From the NCBI GenBank assembly GCA_029261215.1, contig JAJDBT010000071.1, positions 1-37,407 on the forward strand: a stretch of 37,407 bases of DNA, in the 5' to 3' direction. The first letter of the stretch is position 1; each line of letters starts with the position of its first letter. The DNA is from Nitrospirota bacterium (lineage in GTDB: Bacteria; Nitrospirota; Nitrospiria; SBBL01; JAADHI01). The translations under genes were made by a program, and so were the position numbers. Shown one piece after another: positions 27,554-37,126 of the stretch. Below the pieces are notes generated by a model, which ran no database searches, was not told the origin of the DNA, and saw nothing but the letters and a program-made list of their open reading frames with translations.

Positions 27554-28828
27554 CTAAAAAACATAACTAAAAGACGCGTTCACGATATGAATCCTGGATT
27601 CAAAAGTGCCAACGACACTGGCATTGCTCACATCCCGATCTTTTTTCTGGGAGAGCAGATATCCCAGAGCCAAGGTAGTTCGTTCTCCATGATGATATTT
27701 CAAGCCAGTGGAATAGATGAACGCATCAGCCCCCGGCAATTCAAAACTAAGTGTATTTTCCGGAACAGGACTTTCATCAAAACCAAAACCAAGCAACCAT
27801 GTAAAATCCTGATTATAAAGATAAGTGAAGCCCAGGCGATAGGTATCCGAATTTTCCCAATTTTTCACAACAGGATTATCAAATATTGCGAGGGCGGGGG
27901 AGCCCGTAGGTAAACCACCAGGGTATTCAACATCAAGTGTACTATACGCACTCCAATAGGTTCGTTCGTAAACAAACTCAAAGACGGCTTTTGGAAGAGT
28001 ATACGCTGCAGCAATCTGCCAGGTTGCCGGAAGTACAACCTCAAGTGAAGCAGGGCCGGAAAAAGAACCGCCACCCAGTCCTGTAGCGGAGAGTGTTGCA
28101 TCTCCCTCAAGATTCGGAGTTATTTTTGAACGATAGAGCGTTGATAAAGTCAGCATTTTCAGTGGTTTATACGATACCGCAAGGTAGTATCCGGAGTTAA
28201 AATCGTCCCCTTTTAAATCTCGCATCAAATCCCTGGGGCCAGAAGCATCAACCGTCGCAGTCCCGTCGCCTTTAATGACTCCTTCACTAAAAATGCCTCT
28301 AATGCCCCATCCAAGCGAAAGGTTTTCATGGACCAGAAAGGCAACTGCAAGATCAAGTTCAATGACTTCTAATGTAAATTCTTTAAAAAATGCCCTCTGA
28401 GGTGATCCATCCCACCTTTTAGAAAGCCCAAAAGGGTAAACAAGCGAAAAACCAAAACGGGCCTTCCCATAATTCGAGGAGATAAAGTGAATATTGGGTA
28501 AAAAAGCATCTTCACTTTTTGAAGTTGTATCGGCACTCACGCCTAAATAAGTGCCTCTAAAATCAACACCTGGCAAATGGATATAGTTTAAACTCGTCTC
28601 AATCGCCGGTCCTTCAGCACTCCAAACTATGTTCGCCGGATTAAAGTAAACCGAATCAGGGCCGGAGGCATTCGCGACATAAGCCCCACCCAACGCTAAA
28701 GAACTAAACGACTGTTCAGGAATTTTATAACCGGCGGCAAAAAGGATTGTTGAAGATATACTGGTAAGCGTTAACACTAAAATCAAGATCAAAAGCATTT
28801 TTTTTAGGAATCGTTCAAATCGCTTCAT
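27554..28828 (-). CDS. FadL/OmpP1/TodX-family outer membrane transporter
   Basis: This 424-residue protein has a cleavable signal (hydrophobic about residues 11-31, ending near ILFAAG) and a mature start GYKIPEQSFSSLALGGAYVANASGPDSVYFNPAN, the hallmark of FadL-like proteins whose N-terminal hatch plugs the barrel. The rest is alternating beta strands with many aromatic residues, ending in SFSYVF with terminal phenylalanine, the usual sign of BAM-inserted barrels. Family members import long-chain fatty acids or aromatic hydrocarbons across the outer membrane. The substrate is unknown. Its ATG overlaps the stop of rluB (ATGA), making it the last gene of a uspA-rluB-fadL unit. Confidence 0.92.
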   Translation of the reverse strand: MKRFERFLKKMLLILILVLTLTSISSTILFAAGYKIPEQSFSSLALGGAYVANASGPDSVYFNPANIVWSAEGPAIETSLNYIHLPGVDFRGTYLGVSADTTSKSEDAFLPNIHFISSNYGKARFGFSLVYPFGLSKRWDGSPQRAFFKEFTLEVIELDLAVAFLVHENLSLGWGIRGIFSEGVIKGDGTATVDASGPRDLMRDLKGDDFNSGYYLAVSYKPLKMLTLSTLYRSKITPNLEGDATLSATGLGGGSFSGPASLEVVLPATWQIAAAYTLPKAVFEFVYERTYWSAYSTLDVEYPGGLPTGSPALAIFDNPVVKNWENSDTYRLGFTYLYNQDFTWLLGFGFDESPVPENTLSFELPGADAFIYSTGLKYHHGERTTLALGYLLSQKKDRDVSNASVVGTFESRIHIVNASFSYVF

Positions 28829-29661
28829 GATTTTCTCCTCTGTTTTGGTGCAGGGGCCGCAGACCTTGTCTTTTTCACACTGGGTTTCGCTAAACGTTTA
28901 ACAGGAGCTTTCTTTAAAACAGGTGGCTCAAAAGGCTCACCTAAGGCAATCGCTTGTAATTTTTTAATTTCATACGAGGTCAAATGCCGGTACTTTCCGA
29001 TGCCCAGTGCTCTTATTTTTAAGAAGGCATAGGCCACGCGCTTCAATTTCACAACAGGATGCCCGACACGCTCCAAAACCCGTCGAATCTCCCGTTTTTT
29101 GCCTTCATGCAAAACCAATTCAACCCATCCGTTTTCTTTCGTCTCGTGAATCTTTCGAATTTTACACGGGGCCGTTTTCCCGGTGGGCAAAGAAATTCCG
29201 CCTCTTGCGATTTTAAGCAAGGTTTCTTCAGATAAATGTCCTCGCACTTTGGCCCAATAGGTCTTTTCAACCTCGTTTTTTGGATGCATTAATGCGTTGG
29301 CTAAATCCCCGTCGTTGGTTAAAAGAAGCAATCCCTCGGTTTCGTAGTCCAAGCGGCCGACCGGCGAAACCCGATCTTTCACATCAGCGATCAAGTCCAT
29401 CACTGTCGGACGCCCTTCGGGATCATGACGGGTCGTAATATAGCGTTTCGGTTTATTGAGTAGAATATACACTTTTCGCGAGGCTTTTTTGAGTCGTTTG
29501 CCATCGACTTTAATGTAGTCCGAGGCCGGATCAACCTTCATCCCCTGCTCCGTCACAACAGCGCCATTTACAATCACCCGCCCTTCGGAAATCATTGTTT
29601 CCGCTTCGCGGCGTGATGCAATCCCCGCCTGGGCAATAACCTTTTGTAATCGGTCTGACAT
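28825..29661 (-). CDS. rluB: Ribosomal large subunit pseudouridine synthase B-like
   Basis: This 278-residue protein has an N-terminal S4 RNA-binding domain (LQKVIAQAGIASRREAETMI, about residues 4-60) and an RsuA/RluB-type catalytic domain with the aspartate motif GRLDYETEGLLLLTNDG. A C-terminal tail of about 40 residues is rich in Lys, Arg, Pro and Ala and is probably disordered. RluB modifies U2605 of 23S rRNA in E. coli; RluE/RluF or RsuA specificity cannot be fully excluded. The start at 29661 is chosen because it overlaps the stop of uspA as TAATG and begins at MSDRLQKV; an open frame extends ten codons further up. Confidence 0.93.
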   Translation of the reverse strand: MSDRLQKVIAQAGIASRREAETMISEGRVIVNGAVVTEQGMKVDPASDYIKVDGKRLKKASRKVYILLNKPKRYITTRHDPEGRPTVMDLIADVKDRVSPVGRLDYETEGLLLLTNDGDLANALMHPKNEVEKTYWAKVRGHLSEETLLKIARGGISLPTGKTAPCKIRKIHETKENGWVELVLHEGKKREIRRVLERVGHPVVKLKRVAYAFLKIRALGIGKYRHLTSYEIKKLQAIALGEPFEPPVLKKAPVKRLAKPSVKKTRSAAPAPKQRRKS

Positions 29662-30119
29662 TATTTTCCTGGAATCGTCAGTACGGGACACTTGGCCAAA
29701 CGCACGACCCTTTCCGCCACGCCGCCCAGCAGAAGATGTTCCATCCCCGTTCTGCCGTGCGTGCCGATGACAATCAAATCCACGCCTTCGTCTTCCGCCT
29801 TCGTGATGATTTCCTTGTAGGCTGAGCCCTGTTCTAAAAACCGATTTGCGGATAAACCCTGATCCACAAGATCATTTTGAAGATTTTCCAATAAAGCCGC
29901 CGCCGTCGCAGAAAGGGCTTGTTCGTGACCCACAACCGTCATACTGTCTGTCACGCTGTAACTGAACGATTCGATGACATGCAAGAGGGACAATGTCGCA
30001 TTGAATTTTTTTGCCAGCACGACGGCGAATTCAACTGCGCGCTCCGAATAATCAGAAAAATCCGTTCCCACCAAAATCCTTTTAAAACCAATTGTTGTCT
30101 TTTTTTCTTTTTCAGGCAT
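29661..30119 (-). CDS. Universal stress protein (UspA family)
   Basis: This single-domain universal stress protein of about 152 residues starts with FKRILVGTDFSDYSERAVEFA and ends with GTHGRTGMEHLLLGGVAERVVRLAKCPVLTI, which contains the G-2x-G-9x-G ATP-binding pattern. It is probably a cytoplasmic homodimer binding ATP. The ATG at 30119 is chosen over the one at 30134 because GGGGAG lies at suitable distance and the predicted promoter would start transcription right at 30134. It is the first gene of an overlapping trio with rluB and the FadL-type gene. The role is general stress tolerance; no more specific claim is possible. Confidence 0.92.
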   Translation of the reverse strand: MPEKEKKTTIGFKRILVGTDFSDYSERAVEFAVVLAKKFNATLSLLHVIESFSYSVTDSMTVVGHEQALSATAAALLENLQNDLVDQGLSANRFLEQGSAYKEIITKAEDEGVDLIVIGTHGRTGMEHLLLGGVAERVVRLAKCPVLTIPGK

Positions 30120-30142
30120 TTCCTCTCCCCACATTTAGGCAC

Positions 30143-30171
30143 ACTTTACTGTAAGCCCTTATTTTAATCAA
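30143..30171 (-). promoter_or_regulatory. Candidate sigma-70 promoter of uspA-rluB-fadL
   Basis: On the minus strand TTGATT (30166-30171) is separated by 17 bp from TAAAGT (30143-30148), each matching consensus at four of six positions. Initiation near 30135 would give a leader of about 15 nt to the preferred uspA start. Confidence 0.4.
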
Positions 30172-30250
30172 GAAAAACACGGGCTTCCGATATGAATATG
30201 GGCTATATTTTCAATACCTTTTTATCCCTGCCCTTCGGCAAGAATACACC

Positions 30251-30279
30251 TTGCTTAACAAAACAGCTTCTCCTACAAT
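30251..30279 (+). promoter_or_regulatory. Candidate sigma-70 promoter of the cytochrome c gene
   Basis: TTGCTT (30251-30256) and TACAAT (30274-30279) are 17 bp apart. The -10 matches at five of six positions. The leader to the ATG at 30328 would be about 40 nt and carries AGGA before the start. Confidence 0.45.
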
Positions 30280-30327
30280 AAAACCAGATCTTTTTAAGAA
30301 CCCATAACAACAATTCAGGAAAAAATC

Positions 30328-30720
30328 ATGCGCTATTTTCACTTCAAGTTCGTATTATTCAGCATCTTCTTTCTCACAATGCTTTCCGCCTGCACAAACC
30401 CGGATGCCCCGGCCTCAAATGCGCCCACACCTCCCGCACCCGCAGCGTTTTCCAGCGGAGAGAAGCTCTTTAACAGTAACTGCGCAGGATGTCATGGCAT
30501 GGGAGCAAAAGGCTCGGATCGTGGGCCGACCTTTATTTCAAAGATTTATGAACCCAGCCACCACGGTGACGGGGCTTTTCATATGGCCGTACAAAAAGGC
30601 GTTCGGGCCCACCACTGGAATTTTGGAAATATGCCAAAAATCAGTGGGGTTTCCAAAGAAGAAGTGGACGAGATTATCGGGTACATTCGCTGGATTCAAA
30701 GAGAAAACGGGATTTCCTAA
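30328..30720 (+). CDS. Monohaem class I cytochrome c lipoprotein
   Basis: This 130-residue exported protein has a signal with the lipobox LSAC (cysteine 22), a Pro/Ala-rich linker (about 26-42) and one c-type haem domain. The haem is bound by CAGCH (52-56) with His56 as proximal ligand; Met102 in FGNMPKISG is the likely distal ligand. The fold should be that of a small soluble electron carrier tethered to a membrane, working in the periplasm. No oxidase or reductase gene is adjacent, so the redox partner is unknown. AGGA lies about seven bases before the ATG. The gene is single and convergent with pafA. Confidence 0.93.
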   Translation: MRYFHFKFVLFSIFFLTMLSACTNPDAPASNAPTPPAPAAFSSGEKLFNSNCAGCHGMGAKGSDRGPTFISKIYEPSHHGDGAFHMAVQKGVRAHHWNFGNMPKISGVSKEEVDEIIGYIRWIQRENGIS

Positions 30721-30784: not shown

Positions 30785-32200
30785 TCATAGAAGATTCACG
30801 GTTTTCAAAAAAACTTTGGCTTCTTTGAGGTAGGTTTGAAATGGGTCAACCATCGAAAGATGCTGCCCTTCGATATACACCGAAGTCCAATTGAACATAT
30901 AGGGGGCGGGATCCTTCATTAATTTCCGAAGCAGCATGGCGCGGCCAGCAGCACGAGTCTCTACCGGCGGCATTTTCATCGCTTGCTGGATAGACTCTAA
31001 AGTGGTTCGGCGACTCATTTTTCCTTCTGCTTCCAGGCCGAAATAGAGCCCGCGCTCAGGATCAAGATTGTGATATTCCAGATCCAGACTTTTTAACCAG
31101 GGATCATCCCAAGTAAGTTTTTCTTCGGCCATAAACCCTTCCAGCAGCCACAGTTTTGAGGCCCAGTCTACCCGACCCACCAGCTTTTCCGAATCCCCTG
31201 TCTCAAGATCATTCAGGGTTTCTTCCCAGGCTTTCAGTGTCCAGTCGATATCATCACTTTGGCCAGACAAGTACTTTTTTCCCGCATCCAGGTAGTCGCG
31301 TTGCACCTCAAGTGCCGTAATCGGCTTGCCATCTTCCAGACAAATTTCCCAACGGCGTTCAGGGTCACGCGAAATCAGCTTAAGGGCATTCACGGGGTCG
31401 AGAATCGCCACATCCGGGGCCACGCCTTCATGAATCAAATCCAGCACCAGCGCAGTCGTTCCAACCTTAAGGGCTGTGGCATATTCGGAAAGATTTGAAT
31501 CCCCCAAAAGCAGATGAATCCGTCGATAGCGGCCGGGGTCGGCCAGGGGTTCGTCACGGGTATTGATGATGGCACGGTTAAACTGTACCCACTGGTAAAA
31601 ATCACTCACGATATGGTCGGTGCGTTGTGAAATCTGAAAAGGAATCTTGGGAAACTCAGGATCGCCCAAAACCATGTAGCCCTCTGGAACAAAGTTGGCG
31701 CCCAGCCGTCCTGCGCCCGTAAACACCTGACGGGTGACCAAAAAAGGCACCAGACGGCCGAGGCCCCGCTCCGTAAAGGGAAAATCGCGGGAGACAAGAT
31801 AGTTTTCATGCGCCCCAAACGTCGCGCCCGTTTCGTAATCAATGTTATTTTTAATAAAACTGGCGTGCTCCGAAAGGCCCATATCCACGAGGGTTTGATG
31901 CAAGAGCACATCCCCCGCCCGGTCAAATGCCACCATTTCAGAAAGGCCTGTACACTCCGGCGTGGCGTATTCAATGTGCCCCATGTCAATGTAAAAACGA
32001 CCGCCGTTTAAAAGAAAACCACCGTTGCCGGGAGGTTCGTCATGCGCGCGATGATGCCGATCAATCAAACCGACTTTGTGTTGTTCAAAAAGATGGTCCC
32101 GCACCTGATGCACCAGCATTTCGGGCGGAATACCGACTTCCGGGTTGTGAATGAGAAGACCATATTCCGTTTCAAGTCCGAAGAGGTGTCCGGGTCTCAT
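30785..32200 (-). CDS. pafA: Pup/UBact--protein ligase PafA
   Basis: PafA joins the C-terminal glutamate of the modifier to lysines of target proteins using ATP. The 471-residue protein has the carboxylate-amine ligase fold shared with Dop and glutamine synthetase: FGLETEYG (Glu10 and Glu12, metal and ATP binding), NGGRFYIDMGHIEYATPE (Asp72, catalytic), INTRDEPLADPGRYRRIHLLLGDSN, and ALKVGTTALVLDLI. It is called PafA rather than Dop because the other paralogue in the operon matches Dop better; assignment by eye is less certain than the fold. The start at 32200 is supported by GGAG six bases upstream and an ATGA overlap with prcA; longer in-frame starts exist. Confidence 0.88.
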   Translation of the reverse strand: MRPGHLFGLETEYGLLIHNPEVGIPPEMLVHQVRDHLFEQHKVGLIDRHHRAHDEPPGNGGFLLNGGRFYIDMGHIEYATPECTGLSEMVAFDRAGDVLLHQTLVDMGLSEHASFIKNNIDYETGATFGAHENYLVSRDFPFTERGLGRLVPFLVTRQVFTGAGRLGANFVPEGYMVLGDPEFPKIPFQISQRTDHIVSDFYQWVQFNRAIINTRDEPLADPGRYRRIHLLLGDSNLSEYATALKVGTTALVLDLIHEGVAPDVAILDPVNALKLISRDPERRWEICLEDGKPITALEVQRDYLDAGKKYLSGQSDDIDWTLKAWEETLNDLETGDSEKLVGRVDWASKLWLLEGFMAEEKLTWDDPWLKSLDLEYHNLDPERGLYFGLEAEGKMSRRTTLESIQQAMKMPPVETRAAGRAMLLRKLMKDPAPYMFNWTSVYIEGQHLSMVDPFQTYLKEAKVFLKTVNLL

Positions 32201-32931
32201 CCATCGCTCCATTTCCCGGTCCATGCCTTGATTTCTGACGCTGTAATCCCCCGGTATTTTGAAGAACCATTCAGTGAAACAGAAAGTAAACCGCCTTCGA
32301 TGGTTCGCTCTTTCAGGGTCTCTTTTAGGTGTGTCTCAACATGCTCTTCTGTGACTTCGCCCAAGGCCCAAAGGGTGAGGGCATCTTCAAAAACAGCAGC
32401 CACCGGGCGTGCGGCCGGATCGTCAAGGGCTTTCATCGCCGCCTCAGCGCGTTCCGTCGCTTCACCAAAAGCTGCGAGCACAACACCCTGATGAGACTCC
32501 TTAAAGACTCCGTCATAATTCAGGGTGTACAGAATAGGCTGATCTGACGATCCCAGCTCCGCAATCAACAAACGGATAATGTAGGGCGCATGACTGATTT
32601 CCTCAAAGGCCTGTTTAACCGCTGGCGCAAGGCCAAACTGGATGAGCCGCCGCGCGGTCACATCTGAGGGGGATCGGTTAAATCCTTCCAGGTGCGCCAT
32701 ATCTAAAATGACGTTCCGAAGACGTTCTACATCGGCAGGGTGTCCCATCGCGCCCAGGGCAATACGGTCATAGATTTCATATAATTTCTGTGTGCCTGCA
32801 CTCACCGAAAGCAGTAAAATCCCTTCCAGACAAGGCAGCGCAATCACAGGACTTGCGGCTTTGAGCTGCTCTTCAAGATATTCGCGTCGATTGGAAACCG
32901 CCTCGACCCAGCGGTACGGTTCATCAAACAT
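32197..32931 (-). CDS. prcA: Proteasome subunit alpha
   Basis: PrcA forms the outer heptameric rings that gate the 20S proteasome. The 244-residue protein has the N-terminal helix region (FDEPYRWVEAVSNRREYLEEQLKAASPVIAL) followed by the Ntn-hydrolase sandwich (LYEIYDRIALGAMGHPADVERLRN, PILYTLNYDGVF), as in mycobacterial PrcA. It has no catalytic threonine, as expected. The start at 32931 aligns with the Mycobacterium N-terminus and overlaps the end of prcB by 8 bases; a start at 32955 would add eight residues. It overlaps pafA by four bases at the other end. Confidence 0.9.
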   Translation of the reverse strand: MFDEPYRWVEAVSNRREYLEEQLKAASPVIALPCLEGILLLSVSAGTQKLYEIYDRIALGAMGHPADVERLRNVILDMAHLEGFNRSPSDVTARRLIQFGLAPAVKQAFEEISHAPYIIRLLIAELGSSDQPILYTLNYDGVFKESHQGVVLAAFGEATERAEAAMKALDDPAARPVAAVFEDALTLWALGEVTEEHVETHLKETLKERTIEGGLLSVSLNGSSKYRGITASEIKAWTGKWSDG

Positions 32932-33715
32932 GACTGCCCACCACTTGTTCTTCATAAAGCCTGTTTAAAACATCCAGAGGAATCTCCTGAACACCCGCGT
33001 CATTAATGGTCTTAATAATGGGGAAAACGTTCGCACTCTTTTTAACGCCCCCAGTCGCTGCGTCAAACTCCGCCGCAGTCTCCAACAATCTCAAGGCCAA
33101 AATAACGGCCTCTTTTTGGGGAAGCGCGGATACTGGCCGTTCCTCCCACTTATTTTGGTAATGCAACACCCCGCGAATGCCGGGAGAGCCCGAACCGGAG
33201 GTCGCAAATTCGACCCCTTCAAATTCCGCCCCGAGGATGTCGTAAAAATAAATCCGGCCTTCCTTGATTTTTGGATCATAGGCCGCAAAAATGGGCGCGA
33301 CCGCCCCGATGCCCTGAATGGCCATGGGGATGTTGTCTTTCAATAGCCGGGAAAGCGCCCGCACCTTGCCTTCGAGGGACAATTCCTGAAGCTGACTTCT
33401 GCGGTAGTACTTGAAACTATGTTCCAGAACCCGCGCCATTTCAAAGGCCGTAGCCGGAACACCCGCAATCGCCATCACCGCGTGGCTGTCGATATCAATC
33501 ACTTTGTCCGCGCGGTCATACATCACTGTCGTACCCGCAGTTGCCCGACGGTCTCCGGCCACCAATACGCCCCCTTTATATTTAAAGGCCAAAATGGTTG
33601 TTGCCGAAGTGACAAGGGTTCCGTGTGAAAGCGTATTGTTCTGGTTCGAAAGCCCGACAGGCCCCAAAGTATAACCCGTGGTTTTTAATAAATTAAGGAA
33701 ATTTCCTTCGCCCAT
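32924..33715 (-). CDS. prcB: Proteasome subunit beta (catalytic)
   Basis: PrcB forms the inner rings and carries the peptidase sites. The 263-residue precursor has a propeptide of 38 residues. The likely N-terminal nucleophile is Thr39, first of the pair in SATTILAFKY. Counting from this Thr, Asp17 (GDRRAT) and Lys33 (RADKVID) fall exactly where the catalytic Asp and Lys of 20S beta subunits belong, and SGSGSPGIRGVL holds the conserved later motif. The residue before the nucleophile is Ala instead of the usual Gly. GGGGG inside the last codons of ubact lies five bases before the ATG, which overlaps the ubact stop as TAATG. Confidence 0.94.
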   Translation of the reverse strand: MGEGNFLNLLKTTGYTLGPVGLSNQNNTLSHGTLVTSATTILAFKYKGGVLVAGDRRATAGTTVMYDRADKVIDIDSHAVMAIAGVPATAFEMARVLEHSFKYYRRSQLQELSLEGKVRALSRLLKDNIPMAIQGIGAVAPIFAAYDPKIKEGRIYFYDILGAEFEGVEFATSGSGSPGIRGVLHYQNKWEERPVSALPQKEAVILALRLLETAAEFDAATGGVKKSANVFPIIKTINDAGVQEIPLDVLNRLYEEQVVGSHV

Positions 33716-33888
33716 TATTCCCCCGTTCTCTGCCGGTAACGTTCCGATTGTTTGGGGTCTACCTTGCGCATTCTTTTTAAAAGCTTGTCCCGCGAAGTGT
33801 CGGTATCCGGTTTTTCCGGACCGCCCGTATCTCGTGGTTTTTCCACAGGGTCGATCGGTTTTTCTCGTCGTTCAAATTGTCCTATCAT
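33715..33888 (-). CDS. ubact: UBact, Pup-like ubiquitin-like protein modifier
   Basis: This 57-residue protein is the tag of the bacterial proteasome pathway. It is hydrophilic and very rich in charged residues and Pro (MIGQFERREKPIDPVE...), with no hydrophobic core, so it is probably disordered. The C-terminal half (SRDKLLKRMRKVDPKQ) may form the helix that binds the ATPase coiled coil. It ends RYRQRTGE: the terminal Gly-Glu matches the ligation-competent end of Pup, but with Thr before Gly rather than the GGQ/GGE of Actinobacteria. The glutamate is already present, so deamidation by Dop should be unnecessary. GGAGG lies seven bases before the ATG. It sits between dop and prcB, as pup does in Mycobacterium. 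Confidence 0.9.
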   Translation of the reverse strand: MIGQFERREKPIDPVEKPRDTGGPEKPDTDTSRDKLLKRMRKVDPKQSERYRQRTGE

Positions 33889-33922
33889 TTTGCATCCTCC
33901 GACAGATTCATCATTAATGTTT

Positions 33923-35425
33923 TCAGACGCCGATCAGCTCATCGACACTCTGGCACTTTCGAATCCGTTCCATTTCTTTTTGTACTGCCTGAGGTTCAAA
34001 CAGCTGATCCAGTGAATAGACCGGCTTGATGATTCCCCCCTGAAACGTGATTTTTTCCCATTGAATCTTATGAATGTCTTTCAAAAATTTTGATACGATC
34101 ATCCCGCGAACTCCGGCACGGGTGTCCATTGGCGGGGTGTCCATTGCCAAAGCAATCGCCTCATCCGTCACCAATCGGTGGATGGCCCCTTCCAATTCCA
34201 AGCCCAAAAACAAACCGCGTTCGGGGTCGATGTTGTGATATTCGAGATCCAGTCCGGGTAGGCGTGAATCTTGCCAATCCGTTCCTTCAGCATCGATAAA
34301 GGTTTCCAGCAGCCACTTTTTGGCCACCCAGTCCAGTCGATCCACAAGCTGCATGGGGTCATTTCCCAAAACATCCAGGGTTGTTTCCCAATTTTCAAGA
34401 ATCCACCGGGTTTCCGTATCGCCCCCCGAAAAAGCGCTTTTGGCCGCGTCGAGATACAAACGCTGGTGATCGATAGGCGCAATACTGCGGCCATCGGACA
34501 AACGCAGCGGGTTTCTCAGGGATACATCACGTGAAAGCGCCTGCACACTTTCGACAGGTGTGGCCAGAGCAGCGGACTTGGGTGAAAGCCCGCGTTCGAT
34601 CAATTGCAGCATCAGAGCAGTCGTCCCGACTTTAAGGGCCGTCGCAAACTCCGACATATTGGCATCACCGATAATCAGATGCAGCCTGCGGTAGTGTTCG
34701 CGGTTCGCGTGCGGTTCATCTCGTGTATTGAGGATGGGCCGCTCGTGCATGGTGTCGATGCTCATTTCGACTTCCATAAAATCTGCGCGTTGCGAAAGCT
34801 GATATCCTTCCTGCCGGTAATCATTTCCCTTTTCAATCCCCACCTTGCCCGCACCTGCGAAGATTTGACGGGTCACCAGAAATGGGATGAGATGGGTTGC
34901 AAGATCGCCAAATGGCACATGACGCGGTAAAAGATAGTTGTCGTGGCAGCCGTAGCTGTGCCCGTGAAAATCGGTATTGTTTTTATAGAGCTGCACGGCA
35001 TCCGCCGCGCCCAACAATTGATTACGCTTTTTGGCGCAGTCGAGCAAAATACGCTCCCCGGCCCGGTCGTGTGCGATCAGGCTTACGAGTGTTGCGCATT
35101 CAGGCGTCGAATATTCGGGATGGGTGTGGTCGTTGTAAAAACGCGCCCCGTTCCCCAGCATCAGGTCACTTTTCATTTCATGAAAGGAGAATGGCCGGTG
35201 GCGATCCTTTTCCTCAAATTCCAGTTCTTCTTCTTCCTGTTGAAGTATTTTGGCCCGGAACCCGCGTGCATCCTGTTTGGGGTCTTCTCCGCCGTAGTCC
35301 CAGTCGGCTCGAAAGGGACGATGGTGACAACGCACAAGTTCCATCGACTCAATCACCGGATCCGATGTTTCCGTATCCTCGCGAATGATGCCGTATTCTG
35401 TTTCAAGTCCAAAAAGTCGGGCCAT
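33923..35425 (-). CDS. dop: Depupylase/deamidase Dop (removes Pup/UBact)
   Basis: Dop hydrolyses the isopeptide bond between modifier and target lysine. The 500-residue protein shares the fold of PafA: FGLETEYG (Glu8, Glu10) and NGARFYNDHTHPEYSTPE (Asp99 as likely catalytic base). Dop-specific resemblance includes DWDYGGEDPKQDARGF, LYKNNTDFHGHSYGCHDNYLL and QLSQRADFMEVEM, all close to mycobacterial Dop. A charged insertion near residues 60-80 (QQEEEELEFEEKDRH) sits in the region of the Dop loop. Since UBact ends in Glu, its main task should be removal rather than deamidation. AAGGA overlaps the arc stop codon and precedes the ATG by nine bases. Confidence 0.92.
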   Translation of the reverse strand: MARLFGLETEYGIIREDTETSDPVIESMELVRCHHRPFRADWDYGGEDPKQDARGFRAKILQQEEEELEFEEKDRHRPFSFHEMKSDLMLGNGARFYNDHTHPEYSTPECATLVSLIAHDRAGERILLDCAKKRNQLLGAADAVQLYKNNTDFHGHSYGCHDNYLLPRHVPFGDLATHLIPFLVTRQIFAGAGKVGIEKGNDYRQEGYQLSQRADFMEVEMSIDTMHERPILNTRDEPHANREHYRRLHLIIGDANMSEFATALKVGTTALMLQLIERGLSPKSAALATPVESVQALSRDVSLRNPLRLSDGRSIAPIDHQRLYLDAAKSAFSGGDTETRWILENWETTLDVLGNDPMQLVDRLDWVAKKWLLETFIDAEGTDWQDSRLPGLDLEYHNIDPERGLFLGLELEGAIHRLVTDEAIALAMDTPPMDTRAGVRGMIVSKFLKDIHKIQWEKITFQGGIIKPVYSLDQLFEPQAVQKEMERIRKCQSVDELIGV

Positions 35426-35437
35426 ATCAAAACGTCC

Positions 35438-37126
35438 TTAAATCACACTTTTTCGGGGCATCACACGATGCTTTTCTTTGCCAAAAGGAGAAATGCCGAC
35501 GACGTTTTCGGGGTCGTGGTCAATCAGCATGAGCCAGTCTTCGAGAATGTCCGTCGGGGGAAGGATCTCACCCTCTTTATACTCCTCGGTCATCGCTTCA
35601 AGCAGATCTTCCTTGCGTATGCCTTCCGCCTCTCCCGCGATGGCCCGTTTGATGGCCTTTTCCTTAGCCCGCTCAACAATGGACGATATAATCGCGCCGT
35701 TGACCAGATCTTTTCGATAAAGCGTTTCCCGACGGCTACTGCGAAGACGGACTTCGATGATCCGGTTTTTTTCACTGGTGTCAAACAGGGCATCGACCGC
35801 CAAAGCAATCAGTTTTTCTCTGGCCTGTGCGGAGTCGCCGCCCGCTTCACCCAACAAGGTTTGATCCAAAGGCAATTCCGGCTTGAGATAGATTGAAAAA
35901 ATTTCCTGCGTGGCCTCCCGATTGGGCCGACCGACTTTAATTTTTCGATCGATCCGGCCGGGCCGAAGTACCGCCGGATCGATAAGATCGGGCCGGTTTG
36001 AAGCCAGAATAATGACCATGTCTTTCAAGGAAGCCACACCATCCATTTCGGCGCAAAACATTGGCACAAGGGTACTTAAAATATTATGGGAACGTGAAGA
36101 CCGGCGGGTGCCTAAAATCGACTCTGCTTCGTCAATAAAAACAAAAGGAAGATAGCCGGATTCTCGTTTTTCCCGCGCCTGGGCAAAGATATCGCGCACC
36201 ATGCGCTCGGATTCGCCCAGCCACATATTCAGGATTTCCGGACCTTTAATATGCAGAAAGTATTCTTCAACCTTCTCTTTTTTCTCTTCCTGCAAACGTG
36301 CAACAAGACTGGCCGCCGTCGCCTTGCCAATAAGCGTTTTACCGCAGCCGGGCGGGCCGTAAAGTAAAAACCCCTTGGGCTGGGCATATTGAAAGCGTTT
36401 GTAGAGATCCGGGTGGAGCAGCGGGTGCTCCAGGGTATTGCGGATCGCGTCAATGGCCTCCTTTTGCCCGCCGATTTGGTCCCAGGTGACTTTGGGGGTC
36501 TCTTCTAAAAAATAGTTGCGTTTCTGCGAGGCCTCTACTCGTTCCACGGCCACTCGGTGGCTTGAGTCTGTCCGGATCTCGTCTCCGACTTTTAAGGGGG
36601 TGTCTTTTAATGCGGATGCACGGATCAGCAAGGTGGCGTTCAGGCCGGTCTCTTGCGCGACCCGAATGCGGCCGTCGGGCAAAAGATCGCTGATTTTCAT
36701 GACCGCACCGCCCTTATCGTATCCCAGGGTTTCGATGACGACATAGGCCTCATTGACTAAAATCTGTGATCCAATCTGTAGTTTTTCCGGCGTGAGGCGC
36801 GGATCGACGTTGGCGTAATACTCCGCACCCCCGACGACGATATACGCCGTTTCATCAGTCGGCAAACCCAGAAGGGTCCCGATACGGTTTGCCGGAGCGG
36901 TCACTTGCTTGACCACCTCATTCAGTTTCTTTAATTCGGTCTGTTGGTGCTGCAAGGTCAAATCGCTTTCCAGCACCCTTTCCCGTAAACGGATCAAAAT
37001 CCTCCGCTGATCGTCCTCAACAGCCTCTAAAAGAACCTGGTCTATGAGCTGAAGCGCGGTAACCCGTTCCGATTCCTCTTGAGGCGGTTCAAAGACCTCT
37101 TCTCGATAGTCCCGCTGATCACTCAT
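35438..37126 (-). CDS. arc: Proteasome-associated AAA+ ATPase (ARC/Mpa)
   Basis: This hexameric unfoldase recognises the modifier and feeds substrates into the 20S core. The 562-residue protein has an N-terminal coiled coil (about 38-78, RERVLESDLTLQHQQTELKK), two OB-fold-like domains (about 85-200) and one AAA module with Walker A GPPGCGKT (257-264), Walker B FVFIDEAES (328-336), a pore-loop region KGPEILNMWLGESE (295-308) and the DPAVLRPGRID region. Unlike mycobacterial Mpa, which ends in QYL with a penultimate Tyr that docks into PrcA, this protein ends in RKSVI. The coding frame is intact to the stop. It is the first gene of the proteasome operon. Confidence 0.92.
   Translation of the reverse strand: MSDQRDYREEVFEPPQEESERVTALQLIDQVLLEAVEDDQRRILIRLRERVLESDLTLQHQQTELKKLNEVVKQVTAPANRIGTLLGLPTDETAYIVVGGAEYYANVDPRLTPEKLQIGSQILVNEAYVVIETLGYDKGGAVMKISDLLPDGRIRVAQETGLNATLLIRASALKDTPLKVGDEIRTDSSHRVAVERVEASQKRNYFLEETPKVTWDQIGGQKEAIDAIRNTLEHPLLHPDLYKRFQYAQPKGFLLYGPPGCGKTLIGKATAASLVARLQEEKKEKVEEYFLHIKGPEILNMWLGESERMVRDIFAQAREKRESGYLPFVFIDEAESILGTRRSSRSHNILSTLVPMFCAEMDGVASLKDMVIILASNRPDLIDPAVLRPGRIDRKIKVGRPNREATQEIFSIYLKPELPLDQTLLGEAGGDSAQAREKLIALAVDALFDTSEKNRIIEVRLRSSRRETLYRKDLVNGAIISSIVERAKEKAIKRAIAGEAEGIRKEDLLEAMTEEYKEGEILPPTDILEDWLMLIDHDPENVVGISPFGKEKHRVMPRKSVI

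Follow-up and report, generated by a model that had tools for sequence, protein, structure and literature searches.

The 57-residue protein encoded between dop and prcB in the window (the whole stretch of 37,407 nucleotides analysed here) is, as judged from its sequence, an ordinary and well-conserved UBact, a family that has already been described. We give a probability of roughly 0.86 to the reading that this UBact is a Pup-like tag served by the enzymes and proteasome of its own operon and works alongside a canonical Pup system of the same genome, probably insulated from it.

Family membership was established by profile searches, which bore out the proposal of an earlier note, made from the letters alone, that this is a Pup-family modifier of the UBact type. 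The protein matches the curated Pfam profile PF20513 with 61.6 bits (cut-off 27.8, E=5.8e-17) and the NCBIfam equivalog NF033388 with 65.9 bits (cut-off 35, E=2.8e-18); the Pup profile PF05639 gave no match, UBact being the sole Pfam match at E up to 1. Its C-terminus, RTGE, agrees with the R-x-G-[EQ] pattern of UBact, and its neighbours are Pup-ligase-family enzymes and a proteasome, again as described for UBact. In family score, C-terminal R-T-G-E and site between dop and the proteasome genes, it shows no difference of note from other UBacts. With Pup (PF05639; M. tuberculosis, C. glutamicum) it shares the character of a small polar modifier, a C-terminal Gly-Glu and the dop-pup-prcBA-pafA operon with ARC, but it lacks the GG[EQ] end typical of Pup (TGE versus GGE or GGQ), and its helix sequence reads KRMRKVDPKQSERYRQR, compared with DEIDDVLEENAEEFVKNYVQK in Pup.

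The reading frame itself (Table 1) runs over 57 codons and encodes MIGQFERREKPIDPVEKPRDTGGPEKPDTDTSRDKLLKRMRKVDPKQSERYRQRTGE, the final residues being ERYRQRTGE. It lies 34 nt downstream of dop, and its stop codon shares one base with the start of prcB (TAATG). The window holds 464 stop-bounded frames of 40 aa or more, of which two, this one included, end in G[EQ]. The small frame between dop and prcB, its strong ribosome-binding site and its RQRTGE end are just as the earlier note had described them.

Table 1. Features of the UBact operon in the window and of the second, Pup-type operon of the same genome
Feature	Position	Strand	Basis
UBact-side PafA-like ligase (PafA_U), no Dop-loop, WVQFNRAIINTRDEPLAD signature	30785..32224	-	PF03136 425.4 bits; predicted fold best matches 4bjr
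PrcA, 20S proteasome alpha subunit (divergent)	32197..32955	-	PF00227 30.6 bits; TIGR03691 69.5 bits (below cut-off)
PrcB, 20S proteasome beta subunit	32924..33715	-	PF00227 90.7 bits; TIGR03690 163.2 bits (below cut-off)
UBact (57 aa, C-terminus RQRTGE)	33715..33888 (read 33888..33715, ATG to TAA)	-	PF20513 and NF033388 over cut-off
Shine-Dalgarno GGAGG	33896..33900	-	sequence; 7 nt before UBact ATG
UBact-side Dop (Dop_U)	33923..35425	-	PF03136 545.5 bits; TIGR03688 476 vs TIGR03686 387.7 bits; best structure matches Dop
UBact-side proteasomal ATPase, ARC/Mpa type	35438..37126	-	PF17758, PF16450, PF00004; TIGR03689 471.6 bits (below cut-off 504.75); best PDB match 5kwa
Second proteasome operon, complete, canonical Pup	L130 (contig C39: 28000-46000), 6035-12495 within L130	-	own Dop, PafA, PrcB, PrcA, ARC
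Pup-side ARC, ends GHYL	L130 10648-12495	-	stretch read
Pup-side Dop	L130 9128-10603	-	stretch read
Pup, 65 aa, ends GGE	L130 8919-9116	-	PF05639 77 bits

UBact was found over cut-off in 104 of the 296 genomes of the phylum sample, the nearest named relatives being Nitrospiria MAGs and Candidatus Manganitrophaceae, which suggests that the window derives from this part of the Nitrospirota. Across 112 Nitrospirota UBact loci (a set in which some genomes are represented twice), 97 end in RTGE and 15 in RTGQ, with the Thr invariant (112/112); the same two ends, RTGE or RTGQ, occur in four UBacts of a different family that lies outside the class. Because every locus ends in RTG[EQ], the Thr is the family norm and not a missing Gly, and the view that the absence of the first Gly is unusual finds no support. 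The related suggestion of an altered fit in the PafA and Dop active sites is a plausible one if the system as a whole has co-adapted, since the UBact-side PafA carries a fixed signature of its own in the active site. It had also been proposed that the Glu end allows ligation without deamidation. This follows from Pup biochemistry; close relatives, however, carry either E or Q, and by the same biochemistry a UBact ending in Q would have to be deamidated first by a Dop. In the 27 genomes in which both tags were read, Pup always ends in GGE while UBact ends in TGE in 21 and TGQ in 6, so the E/Q state of UBact is independent of Pup. A second, weak UBact match in one genome (G141) was discarded as a chance frame with no stop after RTGE. 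No relatives of UBact were found on viral contigs in the collection searched, and a phmmer search of the PDB gave one non-significant match only, to a chain named C2-Zn2-HEHE-2.

The operon comprises six genes, on one strand and in the order ARC-Dop-UBact-PrcB-PrcA-PafA, with small gaps or overlaps throughout. The full order recurs in 72 loci, most of the others being cut by contig ends. PrcB has its Thr1 in SA/TTILAF (Thr1 following the stroke), with D17 and K33 present, counted from Thr1. The residue preceding Thr1 is Ala in the window and in many UBact-side relatives, and Gly in others; it does not serve as a marker of UBact-side PrcB, given this variation and the presence of Ala in Pup-side PrcB as well. 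The genes adjoining the operon (27554-30720) encode an FadL-type outer membrane protein, an S4/pseudouridine synthase, a universal stress protein and a cytochrome c, with no evident link to it.

The predicted folds of the two UBact-side enzymes (AlphaFold models, mean pLDDT 84) resemble those of actinobacterial PafA and Dop (4B0T/4BJR and 4B0R/5LRT/7OXY), the best match being the PafA-Pup complex 4bjr for PafA_U (E=1.8e-34) and Dop structures for Dop_U. With residue roles taken from published work (PMC8599861, PMC7947786), both enzymes retain the catalytic Asp, the NTRDEP Arg and the equivalents of R201/R221 and H241. In PafA_U, D80 (D64 of C. glutamicum PafA) and R223 (the NTRDEP Arg, R193 of M. 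smegmatis PafA) are invariant among 40 aligned homologues, as are W212, Q214, R217 and L227; the alignment also shows the R201 and H241 equivalents, and no Dop-loop, as expected of a PafA. Dop_U does have the Dop-loop, DWDYGGEDPKQDARGF (also given as WDYGGEDPKQDARGF), with an invariant W42. It retains the equivalents of H231, R227 and H241, together with the Thr which in A. cellulolyticus Dop (T217) contacts the C-terminal residue of the tag (PMC8599861).

The UBact-side ligase differs from the known enzymes around the active site. The alpha-loop Thr pair (T183 and T184 of M. smegmatis PafA) is absent from PafA_U, which has WVQ or WIQ where PafA and Dop have Thr residues, and DEPLAD replaces DEPHAD; the actinobacterial TT..R..NTRDEPHAD thus compares with W[VI]Q..NR.I.NTRDEPLAD. 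Similarly, D-x-x-H-P-E-Y is replaced by D-M-G-H-[LI]-E-Y. Mutating both Thr residues of M. smegmatis PafA slows the enzyme, and mutating the Arg leaves no activity (PMC7947786). The alpha-loop is expected to be helical in a ligase and a loop in a depupylase; in the AlphaFold model of PafA_U it is of low confidence, with pLDDT under 50 for residues 202-208 and 210-223. Neither enzyme reaches its NCBIfam equivalog cut-off: PafA_U scores 321.1 versus 551.3 bits for PafA (TIGR03686), and Dop_U falls narrowly short for Dop (TIGR03688, 476 versus 492.3 bits).

The UBact-side ARC, like mycobacterial Mpa, has tandem OB domains and an AAA domain, with an N-terminal coiled coil expected, and occupies the equivalent place in its operon. 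It differs in its C-terminus, which is PRKSVI and has no GQYL, the motif of mycobacterial Mpa that is needed for opening of the 20S gate (PMC8142254). UBact-side tails are generally rich in Ile and Val (LVNQII, PRKSVI): in 77 of about 79 the last-but-one residue is Ile or Val, and none has Tyr there (the count leaves out L180, a misassigned Pup-side ARC). The relatives end mostly in -II. In contrast, the Pup-side ARCs of the same genomes end in TGHYL wherever the gene is complete. The distinct tail suggests that the UBact-side ARC docks differently on the UBact-side 20S, which would help to keep the two systems apart.

The genome from which the window derives carries four Pup_ligase genes, two in the window operon and two on another contig (C39), where a complete canonical Pup operon is found; these statements rest on family searches and on individual stretches that were read. 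The cell therefore very probably runs two parallel tagging-and-degradation systems, UBact and Pup. Among 114 class-level genomes searched, at least three Pup_ligase genes occur in 86 of the 87 with UBact as against 4 of the 27 without it, 23 of the latter having at most two. The association of UBact with the extra Pup_ligase pair (Fisher p=5.5e-19) is overstated by this value, since related genomes are not independent. Four genomes (G239, G216, G233 and G287) gave three Pup_ligase matches and no UBact match, which may reflect fragmentation, or a UBact-side enzyme that was left behind. Of the 87 class-level UBact genomes, 86 also contained Pup. In G019, a closed, 99%-complete genome from elsewhere in the phylum, UBact occurs with two Pup_ligase genes, and the stretches open to search gave no match to Pup, which indicates that the UBact set can stand alone. 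Dual systems as such have been known from Leptospirillum since 2012: passages of a review (PMC3511204) describe how Leptospirillum ferrooxidans carries the entire system twice, the copies differing greatly in sequence and one of the two Pups being without GGE. The second locus there (L2) resembles the present case in having two complete sets per genome, equal gene order and one modifier without the terminal GGE. It differs in that the dual set here belongs to the class Nitrospiria, and those review passages do not compare the two sets residue by residue.

In phylogenetic trees, Dop_U and PafA_U together are split from every Pup-side and actinobacterial PafA or Dop sequence (99/99, and 100/100 once Nonomuraea references are added). 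Constraining the Dops to a single group lowers the log-likelihood by 20 to 24 units (AU p=0.048 and 0.063). The branch leading to PafA_U is long, at about 1.0 changes per column. Taken literally, the trees would favour two origins of PafA-type ligases, although the published tree has a single Dop/PafA duplication (PMC7947786) and the AU test does not firmly reject the usual grouping; with these p values and the long stem, a single origin followed by fast evolution of PafA_U could still apply. The stronger proposal is that PafA_U forms a separate enzyme class, a second ligase origin from a Dop-like ancestor, giving two independently evolved and insulated circuits with differing active-site residues and ATPase-20S docking. 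We regard this only as a tentative idea that is rather unlikely to hold.

The same grouping with Dop_U bears on whether PafA_U is a ligase at all. Its sequence is closer to Dop (phmmer, 276/269 bits) than to PafA (233 bits), and it lacks both the Thr pair and the His of DEPHAD, so that it might be another Dop-like hydrolase or a regulator, in an operon with a function other than conjugation. This seems to us very improbable, given that the Dop-loop is absent, the best fold match is PafA complexed with Pup, the gene sits where pafA is expected, and the catalytic Asp and Arg are retained. In G019, moreover, the Pup_ligase family is represented by the two proteins of the UBact operon alone, which leaves no further member to act as ligase.

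It is a little more conceivable, yet still improbable, that UBact is a second tag on shared machinery, handled also by the Pup-side PafA, Dop and 20S, the two sets being partly redundant. The enzymes of the two sets are homologous, they coexist in one genome and have in common the R201/R221-type contacts to the terminal Glu; however, their active-site and ATPase-tail signatures stay distinct across the phylum, UBact-only and Pup-only genomes exist, and UBact travels with its own ligase pair. That the frame arose by chance or is a Pup in decay, as its shortness and the lack of a Pup-family match might bring to mind, has a negligible probability: the curated UBact models are matched over cut-off, a ribosome-binding site is present, and place and C-terminus are kept in about 100 loci. 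The earlier note would have abandoned its proposal had the frame not been conserved in relatives; instead, many tens of related loci have homologues with the same gene order, and this conservation refutes the chance or decayed frame.

We thus return to a UBact served by its own operon, for which we infer conjugation, degradation and insulation as follows. The C-terminal Glu of UBact would be phosphorylated, and the PafA-like enzyme of the operon would join its gamma-carboxylate to substrate lysines. The Dop of the operon would remove UBact, or deamidate it in relatives with a Gln end. The ARC ATPase would bind UBact and the conjugates would be fed to the operon's own 20S proteasome, along a route parallel to the complete Pup system elsewhere in the genome and probably insulated from it. 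This reading is supported by the UBact profile matches, the constant RTG[EQ] end and the conserved operon order; by the predicted folds, the catalytic residues, the Dop-loop and the tag-contacting Thr of Dop_U; and by the second system in the same genome, the extra Pup_ligase pair that tracks UBact and the UBact-only G019. Counted against it are the absence from PafA_U of both alpha-loop Thr residues, the equivalog scores of PafA_U and Dop_U, and an ARC without the GQYL-type tail.

We found no biochemical demonstration of UBact conjugation in the literature searched, and to our knowledge there is no experimental demonstration of it, so this locus offers a clear first experiment. Attention is due to the presence of two complete systems side by side and to the sharp, fixed ways in which their enzymes differ, rather than to the TGE end as such. 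Nitrospiria cells with both Pup and UBact systems are a natural test of how two homologous tagging pathways are kept apart in one cytoplasm, and the fixed differences in the PafA alpha-loop, DEPLAD, the ATPase tail and TGE versus GGE provide concrete targets for testing specificity.
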